A program made the position numbers and the translations under genes. This document shows, in pieces, positions 7,831 to 32,000 of a stretch of 64,000 nucleotides of DNA (the stretch's first letter is position 1; each line of letters starts with the position of its first letter). A model generated the notes under the pieces. It searched no databases. It saw only the letters and a program-made list of their open reading frames with translations, and was not told where the DNA came from. Source of the DNA: Microbacterium sp. AZCO (GTDB lineage Bacteria; Actinomycetota; Actinomycetes; Actinomycetales; Microbacteriaceae); NCBI RefSeq assembly GCF_039614715.1, contig NZ_CP154857.1, positions 1,550,001-1,614,000 on the forward strand, written 5' to 3'.

Positions 7831-9606
7831 TCACCACCTGACGTAGCGCTTGAGCGTCTCCCGCTGTGCGACGAGAGCTGTCTCGAGTTCGGCGGTACCC
7901 CCGTAGAACGCCTGCCAGGCCGGGGCCTGCCCACGCTCAATCTGGCGGCGGAGCGCAGACTCCATTTTCGGCACGTCGCCTTCCCAGCGCCACTCGCCGA
8001 CGTACTCCCCCGAAATGGCGTGCTTGCCCGGCGTTCGCTCCTGGACCAGTCCCAGCCGGTATTCGAAGCTTTGGTAAGCCAGTTGGAACTCGTCGTCGAC
8101 TGGAATTGAGTCCGCGAAGTAGCCGCGCAAGTCCGTCACGAAGAGGTGGCTCGTCGGGTAGAGCCAACGCTGAGTTCCCCATCGGGGAAGGTTATCGACC
8201 CAATCGTCCGAGGCGAGGCGGAGGTAGTGGAGAGACTGCGCGGCCGGCTCTCGCTCGTTCTGGTTGTACTTGTTGCGCCCCTCGGCATCGGTCGCCAAGC
8301 GGATTATGAGGTCATCTCGCCCGCGACGAATGGAGGTCACACCGACGATGGCAAGCGCGATGAAGGCGGGAAACCGCCGCGCCATCTCCAGCGCATCGTT
8401 CCAGCTTGAGAGCGGGGCTGTTCCGGCATCGACCAGCTTCTGGAGCACGTCCACCCACAGGCGATCGTGGACCCCGTCGACATCGTGCCAGACGGCCGTT
8501 GCCAAGAGCTGAGAGAGCTCTTTCATGGAACGAAAGTGACTATCGTAGATTCCTTGCAGGAGTTCGTAGCTGAGTTGACCCTCAATTGTCACGGGCTGCG
8601 CCGCGATCGCTGCAACCACTTGGTCGGTTGCGTCCATGACGAGATCGTGAAGGTCGATCCGCCGAATCGGATCGGGCAGGTATCGCTTCAGCCGCGCGAC
8701 GGCCATCGCCGTCGAGAGTGGCGGGCTTGCGAGCTTCTCGAGCGCATCAAGGCTTCCCACCAACTCCGAGAACAGGTCATCAGCGCTGGCCGCCGGAACG
8801 GCGATGCCCGCACGAGCGCTCAGAAGTCGCGCGGCATTCTCGCCCTTGCTGCTCCGTGCATCCCAGAACAGCGGATAGCGGCGGTTCGGAGCACTCTCAA
8901 GCGCAGCAACAAGCGCCTCGTCCCAGTCGGCAGACCATCCCGAGATGAGAAGCCCGTACTCATTGAAAACCTGGGCCAGGAGGCGCTTCCACTCCTCCGG
9001 GTAGTCGCCGAGTTCCTCGGGGGTATTTCGACTGCCGAGGTCCTTGTAGTCGCCGTGGAGCTTGATGAGCGTGGCCGGCGAATGCGCGAGGGGCGCCATG
9101 CCATTGATTGCCTCGGGCCGACTGATCACCTGTGGAGAAACACCAACCGCCTCGAGTGCACGCTCCATGAGACGATCGAAGTTCGTGGTTACGATTACGC
9201 GTACAAAACCGCGCTTTACCAAGTCAGCAACCGCCAAGTGAGCCCGGCTCGGCTGCTTCAGCCCTTCTTCGCGTTCCTCTTCGCTCGGCTCGAAGAAGTC
9301 AGAAAGAAGCCCCTGGCGCGCCGCGGGGAGCGGCGCCAGCTGCTCGAGCAGGGTCGAGTACCCGAGATCGCCATCGCCGTGGTCTGCCCACCAAGCCTCC
9401 GGGTCATCCCATGCGGCTTTCGCGGCGTCGGGGTTTTGCGGATCAGAGGCAGCAGCGATCCGTCCGACGAGCTCACGAACGACGCCCCACCCTGTGGGGA
9501 TGCCGGCGCCCGTCGAAACACCCGATCCGAGCAACACGGCATAGACACCAGGCTGCGCGTGCATTGACGTCGCTAGCGAAACTACTTGAGAGAGCGGTGC
9601 GGCCAC
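7831..9606 (-). CDS. SIR2-domain protein, likely anti-phage NADase
   Basis: 591-residue protein with an N-terminal SIR2-like Rossmann domain (about residues 20-260). The dinucleotide loop is GSGVSTGAGIPTGW (27-40), followed by TTNFDRLMERAL (140-151), KLHGDYKD (182-189) and SGWSADWDEAL (222-232). The remaining about 330 residues are an unrecognised, probably helical region. This architecture, a SIR2 domain followed by a long partner-less C-terminus, is typical of phage-defence SIR2 proteins that deplete NAD on infection rather than of housekeeping deacetylases, which need a zinc ribbon not seen here. The GTG start at 9606 is preceded by GGAGG five bases upstream. It is a single gene within an island; defence function is inferred. 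Confidence 0.82.
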   Translation of the reverse strand: MAAPLSQVVSLATSMHAQPGVYAVLLGSGVSTGAGIPTGWGVVRELVGRIAAASDPQNPDAAKAAWDDPEAWWADHGDGDLGYSTLLEQLAPLPAARQGLLSDFFEPSEEEREEGLKQPSRAHLAVADLVKRGFVRVIVTTNFDRLMERALEAVGVSPQVISRPEAINGMAPLAHSPATLIKLHGDYKDLGSRNTPEELGDYPEEWKRLLAQVFNEYGLLISGWSADWDEALVAALESAPNRRYPLFWDARSSKGENAARLLSARAGIAVPAASADDLFSELVGSLDALEKLASPPLSTAMAVARLKRYLPDPIRRIDLHDLVMDATDQVVAAIAAQPVTIEGQLSYELLQGIYDSHFRSMKELSQLLATAVWHDVDGVHDRLWVDVLQKLVDAGTAPLSSWNDALEMARRFPAFIALAIVGVTSIRRGRDDLIIRLATDAEGRNKYNQNEREPAAQSLHYLRLASDDWVDNLPRWGTQRWLYPTSHLFVTDLRGYFADSIPVDDEFQLAYQSFEYRLGLVQERTPGKHAISGEYVGEWRWEGDVPKMESALRRQIERGQAPAWQAFYGGTAELETALVAQRETLKRYVRW

Positions 9607-10113: not shown

Positions 10114-10186
10114 GACTAATCACCGGCGATCAGCCGGCAGCGATCGCAGCGTCCCCCTTCCGTGCATCGCCCGTATGAGGACCCTT

Positions 10187-11396
10187 GGGTTCTTGCGGTG
10201 GTCGCAACACTTACCGAATGGAGAGTGTTGTGGCGGAGTTGGCGTTGAGGTTCCGGCTGGATCTGATGCAGAAGGCTTGGGACGGCTTTCAGGCCGGGCA
10301 GTTCGCGAGCGAGGTCGGCGAAGCGATCGGCGTGAATCGCACGACTGCGAAGCGGATGCTCGTCGCGGCGGGCGGGGTCCGGCCGCGACGCGGCCGCAAT
10401 CTGCAGGGCCGCTACTTGTCGTTCGCGGAGCGGGAAGAGATCGCCGTTGGCGTGGCGGCGGGTGAGTCGATGCGGTCGATCGCGCGTCGGCTCGGGCGGG
10501 CGCCGTCGACGGTGTCTCGAGAGCTGACCCGGAATGCTGTGCGCGGCCGGTATCGGGCGTCGGCGGCGCAGATGACATCGATGATGCGGGCCGGCCCGCC
10601 GAAGCCGGCGAAGCTGGCGACCAACCTGCGGCTGCGTGCCAGGGTGGAACGGGACCTGGCCAAGCGCCGATCGCCGGAGCAGATCTCCGGCCGGCTGCGC
10701 CGAGAGTTCCCCGACGACCCGGAGATGCAGGTGAGCACGGAGACGATCTACCAGTCGCTCTACGTGCAGTCCCGCGGCGCGTTGACGCGGGAGCTGACCC
10801 GGTATCTGCGCACCGGGCGGGCGCTGCGCCGCCCCAGCCGTAAGGCCGGGCAGCGCAAGAACCGGATCCCGAACATGGTCAACATCTCCCAGCGGCCACC
10901 GGTGGCCAGTGATCGGGCCGTGCCGGGAAGCTGGGAAGGCGACCTCATCATCGGCACGGGGAACCTGTCTGCGATCGGCACCCTCGTCGAGCGGCACTCG
11001 AACTTCACGATGCTCGTCCACCTTCCCGACGGTTACAAGCCCGATCAGGTCGCGCCGGCGTTGACCCGGAAGATCCAGCAGCTCCCGGTGCAGCTGCGCG
11101 GCGCGCTGACCTGGGATCAAGGACCGGAGATGCGCGACTGGGAGCAGGTCCGCATTGACACCGGCATCGACGTGTTCTTCTGCGACCCGCACTCGCCCTG
11201 GCAGCGCGGCATCAACGAAAACACCAACGGCCTGCTCCGCCAGTACTTCCCCAAAGGCGCCGACCTCAGCCAGTTCACTGAAGGCGAGCTCGACGCCGTC
11301 GCCCGTGAACTCAACGACCGACCCCGCAAACGGCTAGAGTTCCAAACCCCGAACGAAGTCATCAGAAGCGTGCTGTTGCGATGACCGCTTGAATCC
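10187..11396 (+). mobile_element. IS30-family insertion sequence
   Basis: 1.2-kb element with one transposase gene and imperfect 24-bp terminal inverted repeats at 10187-10210 (GGGTTCTTGCGGTGGTCGCA...) and 11373-11396, matching at 18 of 24 positions. The right repeat includes the transposase stop codon. A related left end without a transposase occurs at 29038-29073. I did not identify a reliable target duplication. Confidence 0.8.
10218..11384 (+). CDS. IS30 family transposase
   Basis: 388-residue DDE transposase. The N-terminus carries two helix-turn-helix units: GQFASEVGEAIGVNRTTAKR, and REEIAVGVAAGESMRSIARR followed by RAPSTVSRELTRN, the IS30 signature. The catalytic core has SWEGDLIIG (first Asp), TWDQGPEM (second Asp) and SPWQRGINENTNGLLRQY (Glu), all intact. 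It catalyses cut-and-paste or circle-mediated transposition of the IS. The ATG at 10218 is preferred over an in-frame upstream codon because it lies just inside the left inverted repeat. The length and motifs indicate a potentially active copy. Confidence 0.92.
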   Translation: MESVVAELALRFRLDLMQKAWDGFQAGQFASEVGEAIGVNRTTAKRMLVAAGGVRPRRGRNLQGRYLSFAEREEIAVGVAAGESMRSIARRLGRAPSTVSRELTRNAVRGRYRASAAQMTSMMRAGPPKPAKLATNLRLRARVERDLAKRRSPEQISGRLRREFPDDPEMQVSTETIYQSLYVQSRGALTRELTRYLRTGRALRRPSRKAGQRKNRIPNMVNISQRPPVASDRAVPGSWEGDLIIGTGNLSAIGTLVERHSNFTMLVHLPDGYKPDQVAPALTRKIQQLPVQLRGALTWDQGPEMRDWEQVRIDTGIDVFFCDPHSPWQRGINENTNGLLRQYFPKGADLSQFTEGELDAVARELNDRPRKRLEFQTPNEVIRSVLLR

Positions 11397-11965: not shown

Positions 11966-12290
11966 GGTTGATCTCTACACGTGGGCGTCACGCCGGTGGG
12001 ACGCGCGCAACGCGGAGCCGGACTACGGAGTCCAGACCCCCATGGGCGACATCCATCTCGGCCAAGCATTGGCCGACCTCGACCGGCGTCGAGTCGACCT
12101 GCGCACGGCGATCAGCAGTCTTGGCGCCGACGCCGCACTCCTAGACCAACTAGAAGCGTTCGAAGCCGCGGCCGCCATTGCCGGCATGGTAATTGGAGCG
12201 AACCGCTCACTCGACGAGGTTCACCCATTGCCTGCTACCGGCAGCAACAGCCCCTCAAACCCGGGCGGCAAATTCGTACCACCGCTATGA
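11964..12290 (+). CDS. Hypothetical protein
   Basis: 108-residue protein with an N-terminal segment DLYTWASRRWDARNAEPDYG and a helical middle (LADLDRRRVDLRTAISSLGADAALLDQLEAFEAAAAIAG). The C-terminus is low in complexity (Ser/Pro/Gly). No ribosome site is seen before ATG 11964; the internal ATG at about 12042 (MGDIHLG) is an alternative. No family recognised. Confidence 0.45.
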   Translation: MVDLYTWASRRWDARNAEPDYGVQTPMGDIHLGQALADLDRRRVDLRTAISSLGADAALLDQLEAFEAAAAIAGMVIGANRSLDEVHPLPATGSNSPSNPGGKFVPPL

Positions 12291-12588: not shown

Positions 12589-13344
12589 GTGGTGCCCGTG
12601 ACCGCACCGGCGAATGACCGCAGCCGACTTCACTCGGCGCTCTCGGACCGACAGGCGCTCGCACTCATCCAAGAGTCCCAGTCAGCGTTGAACCTCATGA
12701 GGGATTCGATAGATGCGATTCGGGGACTTCGGCACCCGCTCCTTCACGGGGACGCCATCTTCACGCTCGGGAGTATCGGCGTTGAGAAGATCGCGAAAAT
12801 ACTCCTCGGGTGCGCGGCTGTCGAGCGGGCTGGAGCATGGCCGTCGATGAAGACCCTTCTTGGATGGGGTCACGACATTGACAAGCTCTCGCGAATGGTC
12901 ACCGAGACCGCCCGCGGCGGCATCGGCCAGTCGACAGCAACGGGCTACTCTGAAACGGTCCTCAGCCGAATCGAGCAGAGCACGATCCTTCCACTGCTCT
13001 TCGCGACGTTCTCTCGCTATGGCCGATCGGGCCGATTCCACTATCTCGACGTTCTTGCAACGGACGAGCTAGGCGACTTTGAATCACCGCACAACCATTG
13101 GTCGCGCTTAGAAAACCATGTCACGTACTCGGACCCAGCCACGTTTGGCGGCCCCATCTCCGGCGATTGGGGAGACCTTGACGCTCAGCTGGTACACCTC
13201 GCGGAAGTTATCGCGGACGAACTCGAAATCTGGTGGTTCGCCGTACACATCTGCGCTCTTCAGGGACGCTTCGGCTCGCTCGGAAAGAGAGCCGCCTTCG
13301 TCATCTGGGATCCGGCCCGCGCCGTGCCTCGTGAGTTCGCCTAG
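12589..13344 (+). CDS. Hypothetical helical protein, HEPN-like
   Basis: 251 residues reading from the GTG pair at 12589/12592. The sequence is mostly helical, with a block resembling HEPN or AbiV-like proteins: GDAIFTLGSIGVEKIAKILL, then WPSMKTLLGWGHDIDKLSRM. The G-E-K pattern followed by a GHD-L motif is common in small HEPN-type and abortive-infection proteins. The usual HEPN ribonuclease motif R-x4-6-H is not clear, so nuclease activity is not claimed. It converges with the STAND NTPase gene (13494-16928) and may be its partner. Confidence 0.55.
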   Translation: MVPVTAPANDRSRLHSALSDRQALALIQESQSALNLMRDSIDAIRGLRHPLLHGDAIFTLGSIGVEKIAKILLGCAAVERAGAWPSMKTLLGWGHDIDKLSRMVTETARGGIGQSTATGYSETVLSRIEQSTILPLLFATFSRYGRSGRFHYLDVLATDELGDFESPHNHWSRLENHVTYSDPATFGGPISGDWGDLDAQLVHLAEVIADELEIWWFAVHICALQGRFGSLGKRAAFVIWDPARAVPREFA

Positions 13345-13493: not shown

Positions 13494-16400
13494 TCAGATC
13501 GCGCGCCGACGTGCCTCAGCTTTGGCCGCCTCGAGTTCGGTGCTGTAGTGGGCGACGGCGATCGCGCTCATCGTGCGGATGTTCTCGTCTGGGTGCTCGG
13601 CCAGTCCGCGGAACTGTTTGATGTACCCCTCAATTCGTTGATGATCCTCTCCCCACTGCACGCCGAACTCGACGGTCCTGGCGATATGGAGCGGATCCAT
13701 CCCGCGCGGGATAACAATCGCGGCGACTTCCTCGAGCGTCGGTTGAGGCCCATCGCCGTCCAGCACTGACACTGCCGCGTCCGGCGTAACGACCCCGTCC
13801 TCGACGTTGCGGCGCAGCCAGGCGATGTCGGCTCCGGTCACTGCTCGGAGAGCGTCGTCGGATGCAAAGCTTTCCCGCCAGTGCATGTAGATCGTGGTCC
13901 GAAGCTGGTCAGGAAGGCCCGGGGCCGATTGCTCGATTTCGGTCCACGGAATCTCGGAACAGAGTTGCACGTCCGTGGGGTCTGCGCGGAGGAGGATCGC
14001 AGCGTAGAGGTCGGGCGCCACGGCCGCGAGGCCCCGCAGATGGGCGGTGTTGTCGGAGGTATTGGCCGGAAGGGGCAGCCGTAGTTTGGATGCCGCGGTG
14101 CGCCAGAGTTCGTGAAGATCGGGGGTGATCATGACGCGCTCGGGTCGTTCTGGATCGGCCATGAGCAGTGCGGTGGTGGCTGCGACGCCGCCACTGTCGT
14201 GGTTGAGGAGTGCCTGAAGCACCGGCCCGGGCACGCGCTCCATCTGATATTCCAGCCCGAGGAGGTCGGTGGCACGCAGGTCGGACAGCACGATCGCGCT
14301 GTGTTCTGCCTCGCCCGCGAGTGCGGCGTTCACCAAGGCGTTGCGAAGCGTGGGGCGGTTCATGTACGCCGCGGTCTGCGCTGAGGTGAGTTGATGTCGT
14401 TCGGCGGCTGCGCCGACGAGTTCTGCGGCGTCGTCGAGAAGCCCCACATCTTCCATGTGAGCGATCCAGGGACAAAGATCGTCGTTGAGATCGGTGACGG
14501 CGCGCCATACCCGCCAGATACTGGCGGTGACGCTGTCCGCCTCGGCCTCGTAGCGCTTAATCGCCGCCACTTCGTCCGAGAGCTCGGCCATTGACATTCC
14601 CGCGATGGCGGATGCGATGGCGCTGGATTGGGCCTGGAACGCGGACGCCCAGTCCTCGCCTCGAGGCCGACGGGCGAGAAGTCGCGAAGCAAGCGAATCG
14701 GGATCGGGCAGATCGAGGCCAAGGAGGCTGACGCTGCCGCGGAACTTGTCGCGGATGAACGGATTGTCGGGGAGATGATCGCGTATCCATCGGCCGATTG
14801 TCCGTCCGTGCACCCGCGCTCGTGTCTGCTGGGCGCGGGGGATGGTCCCGTTGTACGCCATTCCGTGACCACGTCCCGCTCGTGCCCAAGCGCCGACAAG
14901 TGCGATCAGCGAGAGGGCAGCGTTGGGTCTCAAAGCCTCCTGGGCGGCAGCCTGATACGGCATCCAGATATCGCTGATCAGTTTGTCCATTGCTGCCACG
15001 GTGTGGACACCGCCGATCATGTTGATCGACATGATGTCGTCGGGGGACTGATAAGTAGCATCGAAGACAGGAGCGAGCAAGTCGGCGAGCAACTGCGTCT
15101 GCAGGTCACCGGTCTCCTCGGTTGGGTGCGCGGACGCCCAACGCTGGGCCTCCTGTCCCGTTCGGAGGAGCGCGTCAACATTGGGTGCAGGGTACGGGCC
15201 GAATTGGCGAACTTCGCGCACAAATCGCTCGACAGAGCGAGCGACACCCTTTGGGTCCGCTGGGAGTTGGGACAGTGCGGTGTCGAGGAAGCGAGTTGTC
15301 GCCGTGCGGTCGTGGCCGCCGATCACGGCGAGTGCGTAGTGGTCGGCCGCGTGTTCGATATGAGTGGGCGCGATCGTGCGTTCGACGAGGTCGAGCGCGG
15401 CGGCGGCGGTGGTTGCGTTGAGCAGCAGGCACTGCTGGATAAGGCGGCCGGAATCACCCGGGAGTGCAGCGTCGGCGAGCCCGGCGAGCGCGATCTCGGT
15501 GACGAGCCGGTGCTGGTGCACGCCGCTGACGCGTGCAGCGTGGACGATTCCTGTTGCGATCGCGATTCGCCGGTCGGGCCACCTGTCGTAAAGTGTCCGG
15601 GCGCTGATGGCGGGGATGCTCTCGCGGAGGTAGGCGTCGGCGATCAGGTTCGCGTGCAGCTGGCGTGGTGCCACTGAGTAGCGGAGTCCGTCGTTGCGTC
15701 CCCCCTCGACATCGAGGAGACCGCCCGCGGCGAGTGCGTTGATTGCTGCAGCGAGATCGCGTCTCGTCATCTGGAGCAGGTCGGCGAGATGATCGACGTC
15801 GTCGGTGTCGAGGTGGCCGATCATGCCGAGGATCGAGAGCAACGCGAGGGAGTCGCCCGGCAGGCCAGCACGGAGTAGGTAGGCGCGGACCCATCCATTC
15901 ACTGCTTGGCCCGTGAAGAAGTCGTTCCGTGTCTCGTCGGTGAGTAGCGTCGTGATCAGCCGCACGGCCCACCCGGGGCGACCGTGCGCTTGCGCGACGA
16001 CGCGTCCCACCAGGTCGTGACGTCGGACACCGTAGTTGCGGCAAATCTCGCCAATGACATTGCGAGGGAGCGGATCGACCACGAGCGTCTTTGAGTCGGG
16101 GAGGCGAGTCGCGATCTCTGCCTGCTGTTGCGGCCAGCAGATGGCGACAACGCGGTACTGAAGCTTCTCCGTCCGGCGGAGAGTGTCGAGTCGAACGAGC
16201 ATGGCGGGTATCCGGGCGGCGTCATCTACAGCGATCACGGTCGATCCGTCATCCATGATGTCTCCGAGCAGTTGGGTCGTGGTCGCTTCCTCGTCAGCGA
16301 TGAAACGGATGCCCGGCACGGCCTCCACGAGGGCGGTCTTGCCAATGCCCGGCGCGCCGACGACGATCACATCTCGACCCGACTCCGCGATTTGTAAGAC

Positions 16401-16928
16401 CAGGTCGTCGCGCCCGATCAACTCCGTACGAGCCGAAGATGCCGCTCGCGGAGATCTTGGAGAAAGCGCGTATGGACCGCTGCGGAGACCGAGGAGCTTT
16501 TCGCGCCAGTCGCCGAGTCGGAGTAGGCGATCGCCGAAGAAGTCGCGGTCGTAGGTTTGGACGAGCTCGAAGCCACGAGCCCGCGCGGCACGCTTGAGCC
16601 GGTCGCGGCCCCGGCGGTCGATCGAGGCGAGGCTGACGGCGATTACCTTTTTGCCGTCCATGCCGTGTGCGATCAAAGAGTCGAGCGAGCTGACGAGATT
16701 CTTGCGAGCACCATCGACACTGGGCGAGCTGGTAATGGTCATCCATACCGGGTCGCCCGCGTCGTCCGCGAGATCAGCGTCTGCACCCCAATCGGTCCCG
16801 CCCCGGACCGGAACCAAGCCCGGGTGCAGCTCACTGAGTACGGTCGTGGCGAACTCCTCGAAAACGCTCGGATTGATCGTCGATCGTGGGTTCGCTAATG
16901 CCATCCGCACGCGGTCGATGAGATTCAT
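13494..16928 (-). CDS. STAND-type NTPase with degenerate Mrr-like nuclease domain (putative defence protein)
   Basis: 1144-residue protein. Residues about 20-145 resemble a Mrr/PD-(D/E)XK restriction-endonuclease domain: FEEFATTVLSEL, then GGTDWGADADLADD with the first acidic motif. The second motif, normally Q/E-x-K, reads MTITSS, so the nuclease is probably inactive or altered. A P-loop NTPase follows, with Walker A GAPGIGKT (191-198) and Walker B VIAVDDAA (231-238), then winged-helix-like and about 700 residues of helical repeat. This order (effector-like N-terminus, STAND NTPase, long sensor) is that of Avs-type and related anti-phage proteins. ATG 16928 is preceded by GGAGG at five bases. 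Confidence 0.78.
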   Translation of the reverse strand: MNLIDRVRMALANPRSTINPSVFEEFATTVLSELHPGLVPVRGGTDWGADADLADDAGDPVWMTITSSPSVDGARKNLVSSLDSLIAHGMDGKKVIAVSLASIDRRGRDRLKRAARARGFELVQTYDRDFFGDRLLRLGDWREKLLGLRSGPYALSPRSPRAASSARTELIGRDDLVLQIAESGRDVIVVGAPGIGKTALVEAVPGIRFIADEEATTTQLLGDIMDDGSTVIAVDDAARIPAMLVRLDTLRRTEKLQYRVVAICWPQQQAEIATRLPDSKTLVVDPLPRNVIGEICRNYGVRRHDLVGRVVAQAHGRPGWAVRLITTLLTDETRNDFFTGQAVNGWVRAYLLRAGLPGDSLALLSILGMIGHLDTDDVDHLADLLQMTRRDLAAAINALAAGGLLDVEGGRNDGLRYSVAPRQLHANLIADAYLRESIPAISARTLYDRWPDRRIAIATGIVHAARVSGVHQHRLVTEIALAGLADAALPGDSGRLIQQCLLLNATTAAAALDLVERTIAPTHIEHAADHYALAVIGGHDRTATTRFLDTALSQLPADPKGVARSVERFVREVRQFGPYPAPNVDALLRTGQEAQRWASAHPTEETGDLQTQLLADLLAPVFDATYQSPDDIMSINMIGGVHTVAAMDKLISDIWMPYQAAAQEALRPNAALSLIALVGAWARAGRGHGMAYNGTIPRAQQTRARVHGRTIGRWIRDHLPDNPFIRDKFRGSVSLLGLDLPDPDSLASRLLARRPRGEDWASAFQAQSSAIASAIAGMSMAELSDEVAAIKRYEAEADSVTASIWRVWRAVTDLNDDLCPWIAHMEDVGLLDDAAELVGAAAERHQLTSAQTAAYMNRPTLRNALVNAALAGEAEHSAIVLSDLRATDLLGLEYQMERVPGPVLQALLNHDSGGVAATTALLMADPERPERVMITPDLHELWRTAASKLRLPLPANTSDNTAHLRGLAAVAPDLYAAILLRADPTDVQLCSEIPWTEIEQSAPGLPDQLRTTIYMHWRESFASDDALRAVTGADIAWLRRNVEDGVVTPDAAVSVLDGDGPQPTLEEVAAIVIPRGMDPLHIARTVEFGVQWGEDHQRIEGYIKQFRGLAEHPDENIRTMSAIAVAHYSTELEAAKAEARRRAI

Positions 16929-17126
16929 GCCCGCCTCCGCCTCGACATTATGCGACGCGTGAGACACGCTCCGAGTGCGGCGCGCATGCGCTTGCAGGGT
17001 TTCACTCAAGCACCGGTCTGCAGTGAGGTCTGAGGATGGGGTGCGGCGCCCGCAGGCCTCCCCTCTGCGCGCAACGCCCGCTTGGGGATGGAGCATCGCG
17101 TCGGCGGCTATCGATACGCTCCGAAC

Positions 17127-18047
17127 ATGAGCTCAACGGATGTCAGGAATGACTTGATTCGCGACTTCTACGCGCACTCTCCCTCCCAATACCTGCGCAC
17201 TCGCATCACGCTTCTGATTGCGTTTGGTGACGCACGAGCTCCCCTCCACAAGGCACTCACTGACGGTGTCGAGGCGTGGAACCTGCGCGCGCAGTCCGGA
17301 GCCACCCCCGACCAAGATGAGACCGACGGGTTTGCGGTTATCGAGTCGTTGTCGATCATGTACCTGGCCGCCGAGGCACTGCTCCGACTGTACTTCGCAC
17401 ACGTCGATGAGAACTCGTGCCCACCCCTGCGGCTATCTGGCTTGACGAGCTACGCGAAGTTCAAACAGAACGCGGCCGCCTTGATCTCCGATCCTCCGAG
17501 CCTCGAGTCACTTCGCCTCGTATTCCGCGGCGGCCCCGACGCTCCCCCAGACGTGTCCGACCAGGCGTGGGCAGAAGATGCAGACGTCCTCCGATTTCTT
17601 GTGAACCGCGCGGCTGAATTGATGGCCAACGAGGCGAACGTATACAACGCGACCAAGCATGGGCTCGCGGTACAGCCACGAAAATCTGGCATGCGCCTCG
17701 GCAGCGAGCACGATCCAGCCGGCGTGATGATCGACCACCATGGATCCTCAATCAGATTCCTGAACAAGATGCCCAGCTCAGGAGGCGCCACCCAGCACTG
17801 GCGGGAGACCGTGCAGTTCGCCTTTCCGTCACAAAACCTCGCCCTGGCCTACGCGTTCGCCGACGAGATCGACGCGATCCACACCGTTGCTAAGGGCCGC
17901 CTGCTTGGCCAGGAGGGAGCAATCGCGATTCATCCACGTGCGCTACTTGAGTACTTTGGCGCAGTCCCTTTCGGAAGTGAGTACACAGGTCTGCTATCGA
18001 TGGCCATGAACAGGGACTTTCAGGTCCGGGTCTTTAGCGGTGCCTAG
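17127..18047 (+). CDS. Hypothetical protein divergent from the STAND NTPase
   Basis: 306-residue, largely helical protein reading from ATG 17127. It starts 198 bases from the STAND gene and is transcribed away from it, so a shared control region is likely. The middle carries LVNRAAELMANEANVYNATKHGLAV; an N-x-x-KHG pattern of this kind occurs in uncharacterised HEPN-like proteins, but I cannot assign a family. The C-terminal third looks like a separate beta-rich part (GMRLGSEHDPAGVMIDHHG). Given its position it may be a partner of the STAND protein or an independent gene. Confidence 0.55.
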   Translation: MSSTDVRNDLIRDFYAHSPSQYLRTRITLLIAFGDARAPLHKALTDGVEAWNLRAQSGATPDQDETDGFAVIESLSIMYLAAEALLRLYFAHVDENSCPPLRLSGLTSYAKFKQNAAALISDPPSLESLRLVFRGGPDAPPDVSDQAWAEDADVLRFLVNRAAELMANEANVYNATKHGLAVQPRKSGMRLGSEHDPAGVMIDHHGSSIRFLNKMPSSGGATQHWRETVQFAFPSQNLALAYAFADEIDAIHTVAKGRLLGQEGAIAIHPRALLEYFGAVPFGSEYTGLLSMAMNRDFQVRVFSGA

Positions 18048-18882: not shown

Positions 18883-18997
18883 CGGTCACCACATCCCCCC
18901 AGATGAACCGCAGGCCCCCGGCCCGCGAAGAACGAGTCTCGCCTATCGAGGGTGAGCGCGGGCGCATTGTGACCGAGCGTTGCGCATCCGGAACCGC

Positions 18998-20737
18998 GTG
19001 AGCCCTACCGTGACACGCGTGACAGCAACGACCTCGCCTCGCCCTCGACGCCGGACGGGAGGGCTCGGCCGCCCCACCGGACGCGACGTCGTCTCCGGAT
19101 TCGTCACAGGCCTCTTCTCGATTCCCGAGGGCATGGCTTACGCGAGCATCGGGAACTTCTCCGCCCCGCTCGGTCTGTGGTCGGGCATCGTGCCGACGAT
19201 CGTCGGCTCGATGTTCACCCGCACCGTGCTCATGGTGACGACGCTGACGAGCGCGATCGCTCTCACATCGCAGAGTGTGCTGAAGGGTGCCGGCCTCGAC
19301 CCGGGCGACCTAGGCGCTGTCGCGACGCTGACGGTCATGGTCGGCGTGGTGATGCTCGTCATGGGGCTCCTCAAGCTGGGCTCGGTCATGTCGTACGTGT
19401 CGACGGCGGTCATGACGGGCTTCACGACGGGGATCGCGCTGCAGATCATCGCGGGCGTCATCCACGACGCGACGGGCTACTCGCCGCAGAGCTCGAACAC
19501 GGTCGGGAAGATCGTCGACGCGGTCGCGAACATCGACCAGTGGCAGCTCGCCTCGGTGCTCGTCTCCGCGGCCACGATCGGCGTGTGGGTCGTCGTGCGC
19601 TTCATCAAGCCGATCCGCTCCCTCGCGACCCTCGTCGCGCTCCTCGTCGTGACGGTCCCGGTCGCGCTCCTCGGCCTGGACGTCGAGTACGTGTCCGACA
19701 TCGCGACGATCCCGCGCGCGCTGCCGCCGCTGAGTCTCCCCGACATCGCCGCGATCCCCGCCCTGATGACGGGCGCGGTAGCCGTCGCGCTCGTCGCGCT
19801 CGCGCAGGCGGCGGGCATCAGCGCCGCCGTCGGCAATCCAGACGGCACCCGATCGGATGCCTCGAAGGACTTCACTGCCCAGGGCCTGGCCAACATCGCG
19901 GGCGGGTTCTTCTCGGCGCTCCCGACGGGCGGTTCGATGTCGCGCACCGGCGTCGCGACGAGCGCGGGAGCGCGCACCCGCTGGTCCGGCATCTTCGCGG
20001 GACTCTGGCTCGCACTCATCGTGCTCCTGGTGGGTCCGTTCGCGGGCTATATCCCGATGCCCGTCATCGGCGGCCTCATGTTCGTCATCGGCGGCGAGCT
20101 CGTGGCGGGGCGCTGGGACGACATCGTGCTCGTCTTCCGCACGTCGGCGCTCTCGGCGGCCGCGCTCGTCGTGACCTTCGCGGCGACGACGGCCCTTCCG
20201 CTGCAGCAGGCGATCTTCATCGGCGCGGGACTCTCCATCATCCTCAGTGTCGTCGCCCTCTCTCGCACTGGGCGCATCCTCGAGGTCGTCCGGCAGGGCG
20301 ACGGCTGGATCGTCGAGAACCCGCCGCAGAGCCTGCCTAGCCACCGCACGACGGTGCTGCACTACACGGGCGGCAGCATCTTCGCCGAGGTCAACCGGCT
20401 GCAGGAGGATTGGCCCCTCGTGAAGGGGACGACGGATGCCGCGATCGTGCTGTCGATGCGCGGCTCCCCCATGGTCCCCTCGGCCACGTTCCTCAAGGCG
20501 CTCGACCAGATCGTCGCCGACCTGCGCGCGGAGGGCATCTCGCTCGTCCTGTGCGGCGTGCCGCCGAAATTCGCCGAGCTCCTCACCCACACGGGACGGC
20601 TCACGCACCTCGGTCCGGAGAACGTCGTCATCGAGACGCCGCGGCTGGCCGAGTCGCTCGAGACGGCGTATGCGCGAGCAGAAACGTTGCGGACGGAGGC
20701 GCGGAACGAGGCATCCCGAGACCCCAAGGGGGCCTGA
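18998..20737 (+). CDS. SulP family anion (sulfate) transporter with STAS domain
   Basis: About 579 residues. The membrane domain (about residues 30-430) includes the family signatures SGFVTGLFSIPEGMAYASIG and, later, GLANIAGGFFSALPTGGSMSR. A C-terminal STAS domain (about 450-560) follows. SulP proteins carry sulfate or other anions across the cytoplasmic membrane. It is the first gene of a rightward run with the arylsulfatase, a second SulP and the formylglycine-generating enzyme, so sulfate handling is likely. The start is uncertain: the GTG at 18998 is used, but an in-frame TTG at 18980 is possible. A truncated copy lies at 37604-38163. Confidence 0.85.
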   Translation: MSPTVTRVTATTSPRPRRRTGGLGRPTGRDVVSGFVTGLFSIPEGMAYASIGNFSAPLGLWSGIVPTIVGSMFTRTVLMVTTLTSAIALTSQSVLKGAGLDPGDLGAVATLTVMVGVVMLVMGLLKLGSVMSYVSTAVMTGFTTGIALQIIAGVIHDATGYSPQSSNTVGKIVDAVANIDQWQLASVLVSAATIGVWVVVRFIKPIRSLATLVALLVVTVPVALLGLDVEYVSDIATIPRALPPLSLPDIAAIPALMTGAVAVALVALAQAAGISAAVGNPDGTRSDASKDFTAQGLANIAGGFFSALPTGGSMSRTGVATSAGARTRWSGIFAGLWLALIVLLVGPFAGYIPMPVIGGLMFVIGGELVAGRWDDIVLVFRTSALSAAALVVTFAATTALPLQQAIFIGAGLSIILSVVALSRTGRILEVVRQGDGWIVENPPQSLPSHRTTVLHYTGGSIFAEVNRLQEDWPLVKGTTDAAIVLSMRGSPMVPSATFLKALDQIVADLRAEGISLVLCGVPPKFAELLTHTGRLTHLGPENVVIETPRLAESLETAYARAETLRTEARNEASRDPKGA

Positions 20738-20875
20738 TGGCGCTCTCACTCGCTACGGGTGAGTGCGCTGCATCACTCGACCCGCTGTGGCGGTGTTGTC
20801 GATAGACAGAGACCAAGGCTTGAGCACCCGGGGGGCGTGCCATCGCACTGCGCCCTCCCGATTCGAGGAGAGACG

Positions 20876-23215
20876 ATGACGGACGAATCAGTGATCGGCG
20901 CCCCGCTTCCGCCGGCGAGGACGCTTCCCTTCCCGCCGAAGCCCTCGGGCAGCTACGCGGGGCGCACCCTCGCGGAGTCGACGTACGCGCCGCTGCCGCC
21001 GGAGCGGCACCTCGCCGAGGATGCGCCGAACGTGCTCGTCGTGCTCATCGACGACGCCGGCCCCGCGCTTCCCGCGCCGCTGGGCGGCAAGGTCGCCACG
21101 CCGACGCTCGAGCGGATCCGCGAGGGCGGCGTCGGCTACAACCGCTTCCACACGACGGCGATGTGCTCGCCCACCCGCGCGTCGCTGCTGACCGGGCGCA
21201 ACCACCACCGCGTGGGGGCGGGGCAGATCGCCGAGCTCGCCGCCGACTGGGACGGATACTCGGGGCACATCCCGAAGAGCAGCGCGACGATGGCCGAGGT
21301 GCTGCGCAACTACGGCTACTCGACGGCGGCGTGGGGCAAGTGGCACAACACCCCCGCCGAGGAGACGACGAAGGCCGGTCCGTACGACAACTGGCCGACG
21401 GGCAACGGCTTCGAGTACTTCTACGGATTCCTCGCCGGCGAGGCGTCGCAGTACGAGCCGAACCTCGTGCGCAACACGACGAGCGTCCTGCCGCCGAAGT
21501 CGCCCGAGGAGGGCTACCACCTCAGCGAGGACATCGCCGACGACGCGATCGCGTGGCTGCGCGACCACAAGGCGCTCGCACCCGACAAGCCGTTCTTCAT
21601 GTACTGGGCGACCGGGGCGATCCACGGTCCGCACCACATCATGAAGGAGTGGGCCGACAAGTACGCCGGCGTCTTCGACGACGGCTGGGACGCCTACCGT
21701 GAGGACGCCCACGCGGGAGCGAAGGCCGCGGGCTGGATCCCCGAGGACGCCGAGCTCACGCCCCGCCCGGAGTCGCTGCAGGGGTGGGACGAGATCCCCG
21801 ACCACCAGAAGGCGTTCCAGGCGCGGCTCATGGAGGTGTGCGCGGGGTTCGGTGAGCACGCGGACGTGCAGGCGGGCCGTCTCGTCGACGAGCTCGATCG
21901 CCTCGGCTACCTCGGCAACACGATCGTCATCTACATCTGGGGCGACAACGGCTCGTCGGGCGAGGGCCAGAACGGCACGATCAGCGAGCTGCTCGCGCAG
22001 AACATGATCCCCACGACGATCGATCAGCACCTCGCCGCGCTCGACGAGCTCGGCGGCCTCGACGCGCTCGGCACCCCGGCGACGGACAACCAGTACCACG
22101 CGGCCTGGGCGTGGGCGGGGTCCACGCCGTATCAGGGCATGAAGCTCATGGCCTCGCACCTCGGCGGCACGCGCAATCCGCTCTTCATCCAGTGGCCGGG
22201 GCACATCGAGCCCGACCGCGTGCCCCGCACGCAGTTCCACCACGTCATCGACGTCGCACCGACGATCTACGAGATCCTCGGCATCTCGCATCCCGAGACG
22301 GTCAACGGCGTCCACCAGGACCCGATCGACGGCACGAGCTTCGCGTACTCCATCGACGACAAGACGGCCGAGGGCCGGCACCGCGTGCAGTACTTCGAGG
22401 TCATGGCGAGCCGTGCGATCTACCAGGACGGCTGGATGGCGTCGACGACGGGTCCGCGCCTGCCGTGGGTGCCCGGTGCTCCTCCGGGAATCCGCACGTG
22501 GACGCCCGACGAGGACACCTGGGAGCTCTACCACCTCGACGAGGACTGGAGCCAGGCGCACGACATCGCCCAGGAGCATCCCGAGAAGCTCGCGGGTCTC
22601 AAGGAGCTCTTCGCGATCGAGGCGGCGAAGAACAGCGTGCTGCCGATCGGCGGAGGCCTGTGGGTCCCCGTCTATCACCCCGAGTTCCGCATCTCGCCGC
22701 CCTACCAGGAGTGGGAGATGACCGGCGACACGACGCGTGTGCCCGAATTCAGCGCACCGGCCCTCGGCAACAAGCCGAACACCGTGACGATCACGGCGAA
22801 CGTCGGCGACAAGGCGAACGGCGTGCTGTACAAGCTCGGCGGTGCCGGCGGCGGTCTCACGGCGTACGTCGTCGACGGCGTCCTCACGTACGAGTACAAC
22901 CTGTTCCTCGTGCAGCGGACGATCATCGCAGCACCCGATCCGCTCCCCGCCGGAGACGTCACGATCGTGATCGAGACGACCTACGTCGAGCCGCGACCCG
23001 GGGGACCTCTCGAGGTCGTGCTGAAGGTGAACGGCGACGAGGTCGCCTCCGGAGTCGTGCCCGTGAGCGCACCGCTCCTCTTCTCGGCGAACGACTGCCT
23101 CGACATCGGGCGGGCGTACGGCGGCGCCGTCTCGCGCGCGTACGCCGAGCGGATGCCGTTCGCCTTCGACGGGCGGATCGACCGCGTGCACGTCGCGTAC
23201 GCCACGTCCGCCTGA
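20876..23215 (+). CDS. Type I arylsulfatase (formylglycine-dependent)
   Basis: 779-residue sulfatase. The metal-binding start is NVLVVLIDDAGPALPAPLGG (Asp pair near residues 59-60). The activation motif is CSPTR (C97-R101) in AMCSPTRASLLTGRN, where the Cys must be oxidised to formylglycine. Further sulfatase blocks are GKWHN and WGDNGSSGEGQNGTISE. The enzyme hydrolyses sulfate esters, releasing sulfate. There is no signal peptide, so it appears cytoplasmic and its substrate would have to be imported. ATG 20876 has GAGGAG six bases upstream. The modifying enzyme is encoded three genes on in the same direction, which suits a transferable, self-sufficient module. Confidence 0.92.
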   Translation: MTDESVIGAPLPPARTLPFPPKPSGSYAGRTLAESTYAPLPPERHLAEDAPNVLVVLIDDAGPALPAPLGGKVATPTLERIREGGVGYNRFHTTAMCSPTRASLLTGRNHHRVGAGQIAELAADWDGYSGHIPKSSATMAEVLRNYGYSTAAWGKWHNTPAEETTKAGPYDNWPTGNGFEYFYGFLAGEASQYEPNLVRNTTSVLPPKSPEEGYHLSEDIADDAIAWLRDHKALAPDKPFFMYWATGAIHGPHHIMKEWADKYAGVFDDGWDAYREDAHAGAKAAGWIPEDAELTPRPESLQGWDEIPDHQKAFQARLMEVCAGFGEHADVQAGRLVDELDRLGYLGNTIVIYIWGDNGSSGEGQNGTISELLAQNMIPTTIDQHLAALDELGGLDALGTPATDNQYHAAWAWAGSTPYQGMKLMASHLGGTRNPLFIQWPGHIEPDRVPRTQFHHVIDVAPTIYEILGISHPETVNGVHQDPIDGTSFAYSIDDKTAEGRHRVQYFEVMASRAIYQDGWMASTTGPRLPWVPGAPPGIRTWTPDEDTWELYHLDEDWSQAHDIAQEHPEKLAGLKELFAIEAAKNSVLPIGGGLWVPVYHPEFRISPPYQEWEMTGDTTRVPEFSAPALGNKPNTVTITANVGDKANGVLYKLGGAGGGLTAYVVDGVLTYEYNLFLVQRTIIAAPDPLPAGDVTIVIETTYVEPRPGGPLEVVLKVNGDEVASGVVPVSAPLLFSANDCLDIGRAYGGAVSRAYAERMPFAFDGRIDRVHVAYATSA

Positions 23216-23220
23216 CCCGG

Positions 23221-24891
23221 TTGACCCAGACGACTCCCGCGCCGAAGCGCCGTCGATCCCTCGCCCGGGACGTCGGCGCGGGGGTCGTCGTCGGCGTGGA
23301 GAGCGTGCCCGACGGGCTGGCGATGGGCCTGCTCGCCGGTGTCAATCCGCTCGCCGGGCTGTACGCCTATCTGTTCGGAATGGTCGGGGCGGCGCTCTTC
23401 ACGAGCAGCTCCTTCATGGTCGTGCAGACGACCGGGGCGATCGCCCTCGTCGTCTCGGACACGGGATTCGCGACGCGACCAGACCCGGATCGTGCCCTGT
23501 TCACCCTCTCGATGCTGACGGGCGCCATCCTCCTCGTCGCGGGCCTCGCGCAGGTGGGGCGCCTCGTGCGGTTCGTGCCGACGGCGGTCATGACCGGCTT
23601 CCTCACGGCCGTCGGCGTCAACATCGTGCTGGGCCAGCTCGCGAACCTGACCGGGTACGCCGCCCCGTACGACAATCGCGTCGCGAAGCTCATCGACACC
23701 GCGATCCATCCCGGCCAGTGGAGCGTCGCGTCGATCGCCGTCGGTCTCGTCACAATCGCGATCATCCTGGCACTGCAGCAGACGCGCATCGGAGGCATCG
23801 GCCTCGTCATCGCGATCGTCGCCGGAAGCGGCCTGGCCGCCGCCCTCAACGCGTGGGCCGGGGCATCCGTCGCGCTCATCGGCGACCTCGTGGCGGTGCC
23901 GAACGGCCTGCCACGCCCCGTCCTGCCGACCTGGGACGACATGCTGTTCCTCGTCGTCCCGGCCTTCTCGATCGCGCTCATCTGCGTCGTGCAGGGCGCC
24001 GGCGTATCGACGGGACTGCCAACCCCCGACGGCCGGAGGCCGAACGTCTCACGCGACATCGTCGCCCAGGGCGCCGGCAACCTGATCGCGGGCGTCTTCC
24101 AGGGCATGCCGGTGGGCGGCTCGATGGGCTCGTCGTCGATCGTCGTCGCAGCGGGGGCCAGGACGCGCGCGGCCCTGTTCCTCGCCGGAGCGTGCATGGT
24201 CGTCGTCATCCTGTTCGCGGCGGAGACGGTCGCGTACGTCGCGATGCCGGCCCTCGCCGGTCTTCTCATCGTCATCGGGGCCGGGGCGATCAAACCGGCG
24301 CGGATCCGTTCGGTGCTGGGCACCGGACCGCTCCAGACCGTCATCATGGCGGTCACGTTCGTGCTGACGATCCTCATCCCGCTGCAGTTCGCGGTGCTCG
24401 TCGGGGTCGGGCTCGGGATGGTCATGTTCGTGGTGCAGCAGTCCAACCGCGTACGTGTGCGCGAGCTGCGGCTGTCCGACGACGGCGGGATGCGCGAGGT
24501 CGACCCCGTCCCCTGGATCGGCCGCGGCACCGTCACCGTGCTGCAGCCCTACGGCAGCCTCTTCTTCGCCAGCGCGCCGACCCTCGAGCGGCAGCTGCCG
24601 GCGATCTCGCGGGCCTCGAGCGGTGCCGTGGTGATCCTGCGCCTTCGCGGGATCGACCAGATCGGCCTCACGACGATCGACGTGCTCCGCCGCTATGCGG
24701 CCGCACTCGGGGAGGCCGGCTCGACGCTCAAGCTCGTCGTGAGCGACAAGGACGTCCTGACGCAGATCCGGGCGAGCGGGCTGGCGAGCGCGATCGGCCC
24801 CGACAACCTCTACGAGGGCAGCGAATGGGTCGGCGCGACCGTCCGCCGCGCCTATGCCGACGCCCGCGAGGAGGTCGCGAATGCGCGGTGA
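23221..24891 (+). CDS. SulP family anion transporter with STAS domain (second copy type)
   Basis: About 556 residues, reading from TTG 23221, only six bases after the arylsulfatase stop. The transporter core carries VESVPDGLAMGLLAGVNPLAG and, in the second half, GNLIAGVFQGMPVGGSMGSS. A STAS domain follows from about residue 440 (TVLQPYGSLFFASAPTLER). It is only distantly similar to the SulP at 18998, so it is not a recent duplicate. In the sulfatase cluster it may import a sulfated substrate or export sulfate. The stop overlaps the start of the next gene by 11 bases, implying coupled translation. Confidence 0.85.
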   Translation: MTQTTPAPKRRRSLARDVGAGVVVGVESVPDGLAMGLLAGVNPLAGLYAYLFGMVGAALFTSSSFMVVQTTGAIALVVSDTGFATRPDPDRALFTLSMLTGAILLVAGLAQVGRLVRFVPTAVMTGFLTAVGVNIVLGQLANLTGYAAPYDNRVAKLIDTAIHPGQWSVASIAVGLVTIAIILALQQTRIGGIGLVIAIVAGSGLAAALNAWAGASVALIGDLVAVPNGLPRPVLPTWDDMLFLVVPAFSIALICVVQGAGVSTGLPTPDGRRPNVSRDIVAQGAGNLIAGVFQGMPVGGSMGSSSIVVAAGARTRAALFLAGACMVVVILFAAETVAYVAMPALAGLLIVIGAGAIKPARIRSVLGTGPLQTVIMAVTFVLTILIPLQFAVLVGVGLGMVMFVVQQSNRVRVRELRLSDDGGMREVDPVPWIGRGTVTVLQPYGSLFFASAPTLERQLPAISRASSGAVVILRLRGIDQIGLTTIDVLRRYAAALGEAGSTLKLVVSDKDVLTQIRASGLASAIGPDNLYEGSEWVGATVRRAYADAREEVANAR

Positions 24892-25837
24892 GCCTCCGCG
24901 GGAATGGGATGCTTCGACGATGACTCCCCCTGCCCCCGACATGGTCCTCCTCCCCGCCGGAGCCTTCACGATGGGAAGCGATGAGTTCTACCCGGACGAG
25001 CGTCCCGTGCACGAGCGCTCGGTCGAGTCGTTCTGGATCGACCGGCACCAGGTGACGAACGCCGACTTCGCGCGGTTCGTGGAGGAGACGGGGTACGTCA
25101 CGGTCGCTGAGCGGCCGCTCTCGGCATCCGACTATCCGGAGCTCGCCGCCGAAGAACTCGTGCCCGGCTCGCTCGTCTTCACCCCGACGCCCGGCCCCGT
25201 CGACCTGCGCGACTGGCGGCAGTGGTGGCGCTGGGAGCCCGGCGCACAGTGGCGCCACCCGGAGGGCGCCGGGTCGTCCATCGACGACCGCATGACGCAT
25301 CCCGTCGTGCAGGTCGCGCTGGAGGATGCCGATGCCTACGCACAGTGGGCGGGCAAGCGGCTGCCGACCGAGGCGGAGTTCGAGTACGCCGCGCAGGGCG
25401 GTCGCGGGGGTGCCGCGTTCGCGTGGGGGGATGCCGCGTTCCCGGGCGGCGTCGCGCAGGCGAACACGTGGATCGGCCACTTCCCTTATGACAACCAGGG
25501 CCGGTTCGGCGCGACCACCGCCCCCGTCGGGTCGTACCCCGCCAATGGCTACGGCCTCTTCGACACGATCGGGAACGTGTGGGAGTGGACGACCGACTAC
25601 TACTCACCCCGTCACGTCGTGCCCGGCACGGAGCCGGTCGACCGCGGCGGGCGATCCGACCTCCTCGCCTCGGCGAGCGCGGAACCGGGCTCGCGCGTGC
25701 CGCGGCGGGTGCTCAAGGGCGGCTCCTACCTGTGTTCACCCGAGTACTGCCTGCGCTTCCGGCCAGCAGCCCGCTCACCGCAGGCCGACGACAGCTCGAC
25801 GACGCACATCGGCTTCCGCTGCGTCCGCGATGCCTGA
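24881..25837 (+). CDS. Formylglycine-generating enzyme (sulfatase-modifying factor)
   Basis: 318 residues of the FGE/SUMF1 family. Visible are VLLPAGAFTMGSDEFYPDERP near the N-terminus, RLPTEAEFEYAAQGG, GNVWEWTTDYY, and the catalytic block KGGSYLCSPEYCLRFRPAAR. The paired cysteines (C285 and C290) bind copper and drive oxidation of the sulfatase Cys to formylglycine. ATG 24881 has GAGGAGG six bases upstream and overlaps the SulP stop. Its job is to activate the CSPTR motif of the arylsulfatase at 20876-23215. Confidence 0.93.
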   Translation: MRGEPPREWDASTMTPPAPDMVLLPAGAFTMGSDEFYPDERPVHERSVESFWIDRHQVTNADFARFVEETGYVTVAERPLSASDYPELAAEELVPGSLVFTPTPGPVDLRDWRQWWRWEPGAQWRHPEGAGSSIDDRMTHPVVQVALEDADAYAQWAGKRLPTEAEFEYAAQGGRGGAAFAWGDAAFPGGVAQANTWIGHFPYDNQGRFGATTAPVGSYPANGYGLFDTIGNVWEWTTDYYSPRHVVPGTEPVDRGGRSDLLASASAEPGSRVPRRVLKGGSYLCSPEYCLRFRPAARSPQADDSSTTHIGFRCVRDA

Positions 25838-29079: not shown

Positions 29080-32000
29080 CTACCTCACGAGCAGGCGCTG
29101 CCGAAACACGCTCCCCCGCATTCGCAGGCGCTCACTGCTTTCGCCTCGGGCGAGATTAACGGCGGTGTTGAAGGCGGCGCGTGCGTGTGCCTGGTCGCGC
29201 TGCTGAGCTGTCGTGTCGGTGTCGGTGGCGGTGCCCAGCGCACTGCGCCCTGTGATCCCGTAACGGTCGCGATATGCCGCGACAATTCGTGCCTGTCGTC
29301 TCCAGGCCGCACGCGCGGACTCGGTCGGCTCAGTGCCCAACTCCATGATCCAGTTGTCACCGAACCTCAGAGCCTTGTCGACAAGGGTTTGCGCACGACG
29401 CTCCATGAGCGTGCGTCGTTCATCGAGGGCGCGGCGCATCTCTGGCGTCATCGGTCCGAGCGCCTCGGGAATGAGTCCGGCAACCAGGCGTGGCGCTTTC
29501 CTTCCGATCTCTTGTGCGCGCTGCCGAGCAAGCGCCTTCTCAAGCCTCGATCGCAGTGCGTCGGCGATGTCCTCCGCGTCGTCGAGCGTCGTTGCGCCGG
29601 CGACGGCGTGGAAGAGGAGGTCGACGTTGTGGTGATGTGCTTCGGCGCGCCTGAGTGTCGCGGTGAGCGGTCCGAACGCGTCAGAGCCGACGACGCTCGC
29701 TGCCACGATTGGCGACAGTCCCGAGCTCTCGACCAGAGCGACCCACCGGTCGTGTTGCGCGGCGGCGGCAATCGTCTCGTACTCGGCTGCGAGCTGAGCG
29801 ATGGAGGCCCAGCGGTCCTGCTCGGCCGTCATCGTCTCGTGTGCCGAGAGCTCGGCGCCCGCGTGCTGGAGGACGCCGCGGAGAACGGATGCTCCTGTTG
29901 CGTCGCGGGGCTCGCCCGGGTGGGGCGCGTCGTGGGACACCTCGGGTCGGTCGACGGCGACGTAGGCGGTGTTGGCCTGGCGACCGCGGGTCATCGCGAC
30001 GTAGAGGCTCTCGCGCGTCATCCCGGTTTGCACGAGGACGTGAGCCGTGTCCGTTGTGATGCCCTGGGCCCGGTGGGCGGTGATCGCGTAGCCGAGGTCG
30101 ACGTGCTCGGCGACGTAGAAAGCGGGCAAGGTGACGGTCGCGCGAGAGCGTCGATCGGCGCGGCGCACCAGCATCCGTCCCTCTTCGAAGACCTTGATGA
30201 CGGTCCATCGGTCGCCGTTGCGGACCCAGGAACGGCCCGTCCGCAGGGTTCGGTCGTTGCGGCGGGTGAAGACGATGTCGCCGGCCGCTGCGGCGGTGCC
30301 GGCGTGCAATGCAACCTCGGTGGTGCCGGTGATGTCGCCGTCGAGGATGCGTTCGGCGCGGGCGCGGACGTTGAGCGCCGTGACGGCTTCGTTGGAGTCG
30401 GCGACGAGGATGCTCGCGCTGCCTGCGCGGACGTCGGTGCGCCAGGCGAGGTAGGCGGCGTCGATCATCGCGTCGGACTGCCCCTCGACGACTCGGCCGC
30501 GCTCGGTGTACTGATCGATGACGTCGGTGTCGCCGTCGCGGAGTTGCACGGATGCCTTTTTCTCCCAGGCGTGCACGAAGCGGTGCACGTCGACGAGTTC
30601 CGGAACGTCGTCACGGTCGTGCGCGAGCAGCGCGAACCCACCACCGGCGTCGACAGCCTGCAATTGCGCGTGGTCGCCGACGAGCAGCACCTTTGCGCCG
30701 GCGCTGGCGGCCAGGCTCGAAATGCGATCGAGGGAGAGCGTGCCTGCAAGGGAGGCCTCATCGATGAGGACGAGTTGCCCCCTGCGGAATCGCTCGCCCC
30801 GGGTGACGTGGTTCGTCCACCACTTGGCGGTGTTCTCAGTCGGGATGCCGAGGTCCTCGGCGAGCACGTGCGCCGCACCTGCGGACGGCGCGAGACCGAC
30901 GACGGAGCCACGACCGTACGTTCGCTCCCACGCGTCGCGGAGGGCGCGCATCGCCGACGTCTTGCCTGTGCCCGCGGCACCGACAAGCAAGTCGATGGTG
31001 CGCCCGGATGTGGCGATCCTCTCCAGCGCCGCTGCCTGGTCAGCCGAGAGCGACTTCCTGCCGCGCTGGCCGCGTGTCGCCGTCGACAGGCGCGGCGCGG
31101 CCGTATCGCGGGATCGCTCGACCAGCCGGCACTCCGCTTTGAGCAGGAGATTGGCGGTAAAGACCGCGCTTCGCCGGGCGCGGAACACCGACGACCCATC
31201 CGGACGCTGAAACTCCAGCGGGCTCTCTGCAATCTCAGGCGGCGTCAGCCGCAACGAAGCCCGTTCGGCCGCGTCCGCAACGCGCTCCACCACGTTCTCG
31301 CGATCGGATGCCGATGCGAAACGGAGGGGCATCGTCTGCCGCGCGGCTTCCGCAATGAGATTCCAGCGGCGCCACGTCGTGCGCTTCTCGGCGACCGCCT
31401 CAACAATGGCTTCGCCGAGATCGGCGATCACCGCCGGAGACAGGTCGGTCGCGCGGGTCGGAGAGATTCGCATCTGCTGCTGCGACCTCAGATCACGGGC
31501 CCAAGTCGTCGCGTCTTGACCAAGCACCTCGGTAGCGCGCTGACGCCATCCCGCCGTGAGGTCGGCGAGCGAGTGCAGCTGCTTCTCCGGCCGCGTGGTG
31601 AGCGTGGCTTGCGCGCGGAGCCTCATGATCGTGGCGGCGGTCGGCCGATGACCGTGGGCCGCCACGAAGGCGTCGATGAGCTTGTCAGTTTGCTCGTCGA
31701 TCGCATGCGAGCGGGACGAGAAGAGCGCGACGAGCTCTTCCGGGATGCCCCTGATCGCCCATGCAGTATTGCGGTCACGCCCCCGGTCGCGCGGTTCCCA
31801 CGCCACACCGAGCGCGTGCGTGAGCTCATCGGTGAAGATCGCTTCATGCAACTCCGATAGTGCAACGACCGCCGCATGGAGCGGGCGCCCGTCGAGCGAG
31901 CGCCACTTGTCGTCGAGCACGGTCTGGACCTTGTTGCTCACGACGACGTGCGTATGCAGGTGGGGGTCGCCTGCGCGGCTGTCGAAGTGGTCGAACGCCG

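Follow-up and report, generated by a model that had tools for sequence, protein, structure and literature searches.

Within the window analysed here, a 64,000-nucleotide stretch of the Microbacterium sp. AZCO genome (contig NZ_CP154857.1, positions 1,550,001 to 1,614,000), the minus strand carries a gene for a STAND-type NTPase of 1144 residues (P0001), and a second gene, encoding a 306-residue protein (P0002), runs divergently from it at a distance of 198 bases, both as an earlier note on this DNA had described them (Table 1). The 1144-residue frame is open and is counted from the ATG at 16928. Sequence comparison makes this the likely start: the closest relative, from Herbiconiux sp. VKM Ac-1786 (L002; 68% identical to P0001 and likewise of 1144 residues), opens with the same MNLIDRV and has a stop codon in frame 18 codons ahead of it. 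A longer mechanical ORF reaching an ATG at 17096 is disfavoured, since the start residue of L002 matches ATG 16928.

Table 1. Features of the STAND locus and of the surrounding window (positions are those of the window).
Feature	Position	Strand	Remarks
STAND-type NTPase with N-terminal restriction-endonuclease-fold domain (P0001)	13494..16928	-	1144 aa; without a named family
N-terminal restriction-endonuclease-fold domain (predicted), residues 1-150	16479..16928	-	E24, D46, D50, D52, T66 and N77 conserved; basic R75; without (E/Q)xK
P-loop STAND-type NTPase region with weak winged-helix match, residues 151-430	15639..16478	-
C-terminal region, presumed sensor, residues 431-1144	13497..15638	-	least conserved part relative to L002
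306-aa ORF (P0002)	17127..18047	+	judged outside the system, an independent accessory gene; no linkage either way; no confident fold match
SIR2-domain gene	7831-9606	-	PADLOC candidate PDC-S65
IS30-like transposase (by eye)	10185-11384		Pfam HTH_38 and rve
tRNA-Gly (ARAGORN)	12188-12275	-	88 bases; doubtful
251-aa ORF	12589-13344	+	convergent with the STAND gene
Sulfate permease-like ORF (by eye)	18980-20737	+
Arylsulfatase-like ORF (by eye)	20759-23215	+
Formylglycine-generating enzyme-like ORF (by eye)	24854-25837	+
TrwC-type relaxase-helicase	29080-32544	-
Phage_integrase-family recombinase	35710-37023	-

The surroundings of the gene are mixed in character. A SIR2-domain gene matching a PADLOC candidate model (2.1e-197) lies 3.9 kb from P0001 and is separate from it, and an IS30-like transposase gene follows in the direction of P0001. 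The tRNA-Gly call beyond it is of unusual length and perhaps false; when it was considered as an integration site, no exact direct repeat of more than 12 bases was found elsewhere in the window, and no island boundary is claimed. At E<=1, nothing in Pfam, NCBIfam or PADLOC matched the ORF convergent with the STAND gene. On the far side of P0002 lie the sulfate permease-like, arylsulfatase-like and formylglycine-generating enzyme-like ORFs of the table, and the permease region has an 82% identical stretch elsewhere in the genome. The relaxase and recombinase genes suggest that the central part of the window includes a mobilisable element.

The divergent arrangement of P0001 and P0002 had led to the proposal that the 306-residue protein is the signalling partner of the STAND protein, the one sensing and the other providing the output. 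Apart from that arrangement in this genome, the comparison of loci speaks against such a two-gene system, which we now regard as very improbable. All 15 STAND-family loci (flanks of up to 8 kb, less on short contigs) are without a relative of P0002, a lone extra match in L015 spanning 30 residues at E 0.80 being rejected, and no relative of the STAND gene lies near P0002 relatives in seven loci of 17-18 kb (three close relatives at 66-73% identity and four distant ones), so that the co-occurrence check failed both ways. The protein search returned 16 relatives of P0002, and its family is present in 3 of 98 related genomes, 4 of 398 genomes of the window's family and 7 of 295 genomes of the genus, the window's own being counted each time. 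Its predicted model gave no convincing structural match. In two similar loci (L068 and L069) the P0002 relative instead comes after a Phage_integrase gene, and L068 also has a relaxase gene at a distance of approximately 6 kb; from this company, P0002 would seem to be carried by mobile elements as cargo in its own right.

Relatives of P0001 itself are few. A search of 5.8 billion proteins, in which the 7990 candidates with the most words in common were scored, yielded ten besides itself, one of them (P0013) from a planctomycete metagenome genome. A GTDB genome scan with the resulting 11-row profile found 15 loci, in Herbiconiux, six Streptomyces, two Arthrobacter, Actinophytocola, Micromonospora and four actinobacterial metagenome genomes, and one further member came from genome G585; a repeat homologue search with a 22-row profile added nothing. 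The window's own gene is the sole STAND-family match in the 98 related genomes and the only full-length match in the 398 genomes of its family. Among the matches listed, those in 140 other genomes of the 398 were short, below 30 bits and mostly confined to the P-loop, and were dismissed as noise. Viral contigs, phages and plasmids scanned for the STAND family held no relative. In Streptomyces acidiscabies the gene is interrupted at L012:9223-10452 by an ORF that appears by eye to be transposase-like.

Neither P0001 nor P0002 has a curated or convincing match in Pfam, NCBIfam or PADLOC, and the signals that P0001 does give are to P-loop models, together with a weak winged-helix match. PADLOC gave no convincing match for any of 22 family members, and NCBIfam none for P0001; among the best matches in the open-licence PMC literature, no paper was recognisable as dealing with this STAND family. 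The P0001 family is a real, uncharacterised, rare and mostly actinobacterial family of STAND-type proteins with a predicted restriction-endonuclease-fold effector, the site of which is altered in every member compared.

By its motifs P0001 is a candidate member of the STAND class, to which the earlier note had assigned it. A GxP-type motif and a winged helix after the NTPase core are hallmarks of STAND proteins. In P0001, Walker A (GAPGIGKT) occupies residues 191-198, an acidic Walker B (VIAVDDA) residues 231-237 and the sequence GRPGWA residues 316-321, with G191, G194, G196, K197, D235 and D236, and likewise G316-R317-P318, invariant in 22 aligned rows. The Pfam matches are weak: AAA_16 is matched in 21 of the 22 members at E<=0.1 (best 9.5e-7; P0001 itself E 0.0044, below the curated cut-off), nSTAND6 in three, nSTAND3 in three, nSTAND1 in one and MarR_2 in three, all matches of P0001 falling below cut-off. 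The MarR_2-like, weak winged-helix match covers residues 365-414.

Ahead of this module, residues 1-150 adopt in the predicted model a restriction-endonuclease-like topology, with structural matches by Foldseek to Avs4, AF1548 and MspJI. The best PDB match is Avs4 (8dgf), the sole one with E<=0.001; from rank 4 unrelated folds such as DnaK and ribosomal S11 also appear (E 0.003-0.05), and the motif loop is modelled with low confidence (block means of 57 and 67 for residues 41-60). The N-domain profile found nothing below E 0.039 among PDB sequences, and hhalign gave no match to the N-terminus of an Avs2 protein (L011). A PADLOC model of an Ago-linked REase-TIR protein (PDLC02416) matches 4 of 16 N-domains, at best with 6.6e-6, and a genome search with it returned partial matches only, of which L058-L060 were followed. 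On the strength of the model, a restriction-endonuclease fold is supported for the N-terminal domain, as the earlier note had asked to be checked. Of the order of parts proposed there, that of Avs-type proteins (effector, STAND module, C-terminal sensor), the predicted nuclease fold ahead of the P-loop is supported, and the C-terminal sensor is presumed.

The catalytic motif III of this fold, (E/Q)xK, is absent from P0001, as had been noticed before: residues 62-68 read W-M-T-I-T-S-S. We compared 26 N-domains, mutually related rows comprising the window, L002-L016, L057 and P0005-P0013 (P0004, the same Herbiconiux protein as L002 with a later start, was excluded). The motif (D/E/Q)xK is found in none of the 26 in either alignment register, that of motif III being uncertain by two residues. 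E24, D46, D50 and T66 are present in all 26, N77 in 25 and D52 in 24, and position 68 is occupied by S, G or A throughout. The rows divide into a TxS or TxA type (15) and a TTG or TIG type (11), and a 22-row tree separates the two by a branch with support of 93/91, the placement of the long row P0013 being unsure.

Basic residues are nearby. In 26/26 domains at least one of positions 75 and 79, which lie a single helical turn from each other, is Lys or Arg (12 at 75, 16 at 79, two with both), a figure that is not extreme, because pairs involving R142, basic in 25 of the 26, reach 25 through one column; taken singly, none of the basic columns of motifs III and IV is invariant. R79 is found in each of the three TxS/TxA rows that lack a basic residue at 75 (L006, P0008 and P0010) and in 2 of the remaining 12, a distribution for which a hand-worked hypergeometric calculation gives 10/455 = 0.022, with no correction and for rows that are related. 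Of the 11 TTGx/TIG rows, 10 have a gap in column 75. A survey from 2007 describes replacement of the motif III lysine, often by threonine in DUF1626, with basic residues on the helix that comes next, and the replaced lysine is thought there to have relocated to the motif IV helix (PMC1913061). The basic residue at 75/79 resembles this migration, by analogy; compared with the cases published there, however, the P0001 family would have undergone a greater loss, that of the motif III acid or amide as well as the lysine. The helix residues may also serve only for DNA binding.

Another genome of the genus encodes a protein of 736 residues (L056:6029-8239) whose restriction-endonuclease domain is homologous to that of P0001 (hhalign probability 95.6, E 1.2e-8). 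QxK is missing there too: the motif reads QIS, and a lysine of the helix takes the position of N77. Unlike P0001, the protein shows no NTPase in Pfam at E<=0.01, where its sole match is to Mrr_cat, below the cut-off (E 0.0086). MAFFT places its Q at 64 and S at 66, hhalign at 66 and 68, and in either register the motif III positions of the STAND family are neither acid, amide nor lysine. Judging from these alignments, the Mrr-like domain with QIS and a helix lysine may represent an intermediate on the way to the altered motif.

The missing canonical motif raises the question of whether P0001, or at least its N-domain, has simply decayed and is non-functional, as the description of a degenerate nuclease implied. 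The rarity of the family, with the window's own the only full-length match in the window's family, and the interrupted relative in L012 would fit such a reading. Yet the 1144-residue frame is open and the P-loop is intact. The altered motif is common to the relatives compared, so that 'mutated' or 'degenerate' fails as a trait specific to P0001. Between the window and Herbiconiux (L002), each of the four regions has a dN much lower than its dS; the N-domain has a dN of 0.12, against 0.15, 0.22 and 0.30 in the others, and an identity of 0.83, against 0.67 and 0.58 in the C-terminal region. Its dN is the lowest of the four regions in 4/5 pairs, two of which share L011, and second to that of the NTPase region in the pair L003/L005, a close pair in which C-terminal residues 431-800 are less clear (dN 0.080, dS 0.102). 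The N-domain is under purifying selection. Simple decay is disfavoured by the invariant acids, the low N-domain dN and the basic residue at 75 or 79 in 26/26 domains, and we consider it a highly implausible account of the protein.

A role in defence is suggested by company and architecture. PADLOC matched defence-type models to 7 of 13 neighbouring proteins, in 4 of 8 loci, but not to the other 6 (in L007, L008, L009, L011 and L013), and these counts are no census, as the 13 proteins come from 8 of the 15 loci and were chosen by a crude GC-based gene caller (PADLOC was run on all 13, Pfam on the first eight). An Avs2 protein lies directly upstream of the STAND-family gene in L011 (4.9e-238); in L002 the neighbours are a NACHT protein weakly like PDC-M54A, an AAA ATPase and AbiEi/AbiEii; L016 has an OLD/GajA-like ATPase and L003 a gene resembling an RM helicase. 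In the window itself, the SIR2 gene that matches the defence candidate PDC-S65 adds to this company.

The reading that we favour, at a probability of about one half, is that P0001 is a stand-alone, single-gene, Avs-like STAND immune protein in which the active site of the effector is rearranged. The variable C-terminal part would recognise a phage or plasmid component, and recognition would switch the NTPase/winged-helix module, which would oligomerise; the N-terminal domain would then act on nucleic acid through a site composed of E24, D46/D50/D52, T66, N77 and a basic residue of the helix (75 or 79), replacing motif III. To be counted against such a site are the disappearance of both the acid or amide and the lysine of motif III, the want of an invariant basic column and the low confidence of the model at this point.

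Nearly as likely is that the N-domain has retained a restriction-endonuclease fold without its activity, for sensing nucleic acid or nucleotides, with output by oligomerisation, sequestration or a separate effector. In favour of this, (E/Q)xK is missing in 26/26 domains. Inactive restriction endonucleases paired with NTPases are described as often being nucleotide sensors (PMC12839542), and in other systems they are described as inserted beside AAA+ ATPases (PMC10853773). In L011 an active effector could come from the adjoining Avs2 protein, and in L002 from the NACHT protein, but a STAND-like protein lies just upstream in only 2 of the 8 loci with scanned neighbours, and a domain that merely binds would not obviously need E24, D46 and D50, which are invariant across two clades. 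The rearranged-site reading leads for us. It is conceivable, although we would not bet on it, that the family represents a STAND immune family with a non-canonical effector site and perhaps a chemistry or choice of substrate other than the DNA cleavage of Avs1-4. The effectors of bacterial NLR-like proteins are often read from their catalytic motifs, and a motif scan would call a site of the P0001 type dead; with the textbook motif absent and the acids invariant, this family offers a clean test between alternative enzymes and non-enzymatic sensors.

Among known systems Avs4 (AVAST type 4; 8dgf), in which a STAND NTPase follows a restriction-endonuclease fold, is the closest in layout to P0001, which differs in its altered motif III and in length (1144 residues against 1534 for chain 8dgf_B). 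Judged by architecture, the P0001 family seems to function in the manner of Avs. It is not classed as Avs, however, because none of the 22 members matches an Avs model of PADLOC-DB 2.0.0 at E<=1, for the Avs types as modelled there. Avs1-Avs4 are described as having nuclease effectors and as being activated by phage proteins, terminase and portal among them; the effector described for Avs5 is Sir2 (PMC12931631). A protein of genome G585 (L059; QVKYR) likewise places a restriction-endonuclease domain ahead of what appears by eye to be a P-loop signalling NTPase; unlike P0001 it retains the canonical QxK, and the same genome also encodes a member of the P0001 family with TSSR. The inactive restriction-endonuclease domains described in BREX/BR helicases and in Orc/CDC6-HerA systems share with P0001 the fold and an altered motif beside an NTPase (PMC12839542, PMC10853773), and the same question, enzyme or sensor, stands for the inactive restriction endonucleases of other defence systems. 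The domain of BrxHII is described in these sources as fully degenerate and fast-evolving, whereas the N-domain of P0001 has invariant acids and evolves slowly.
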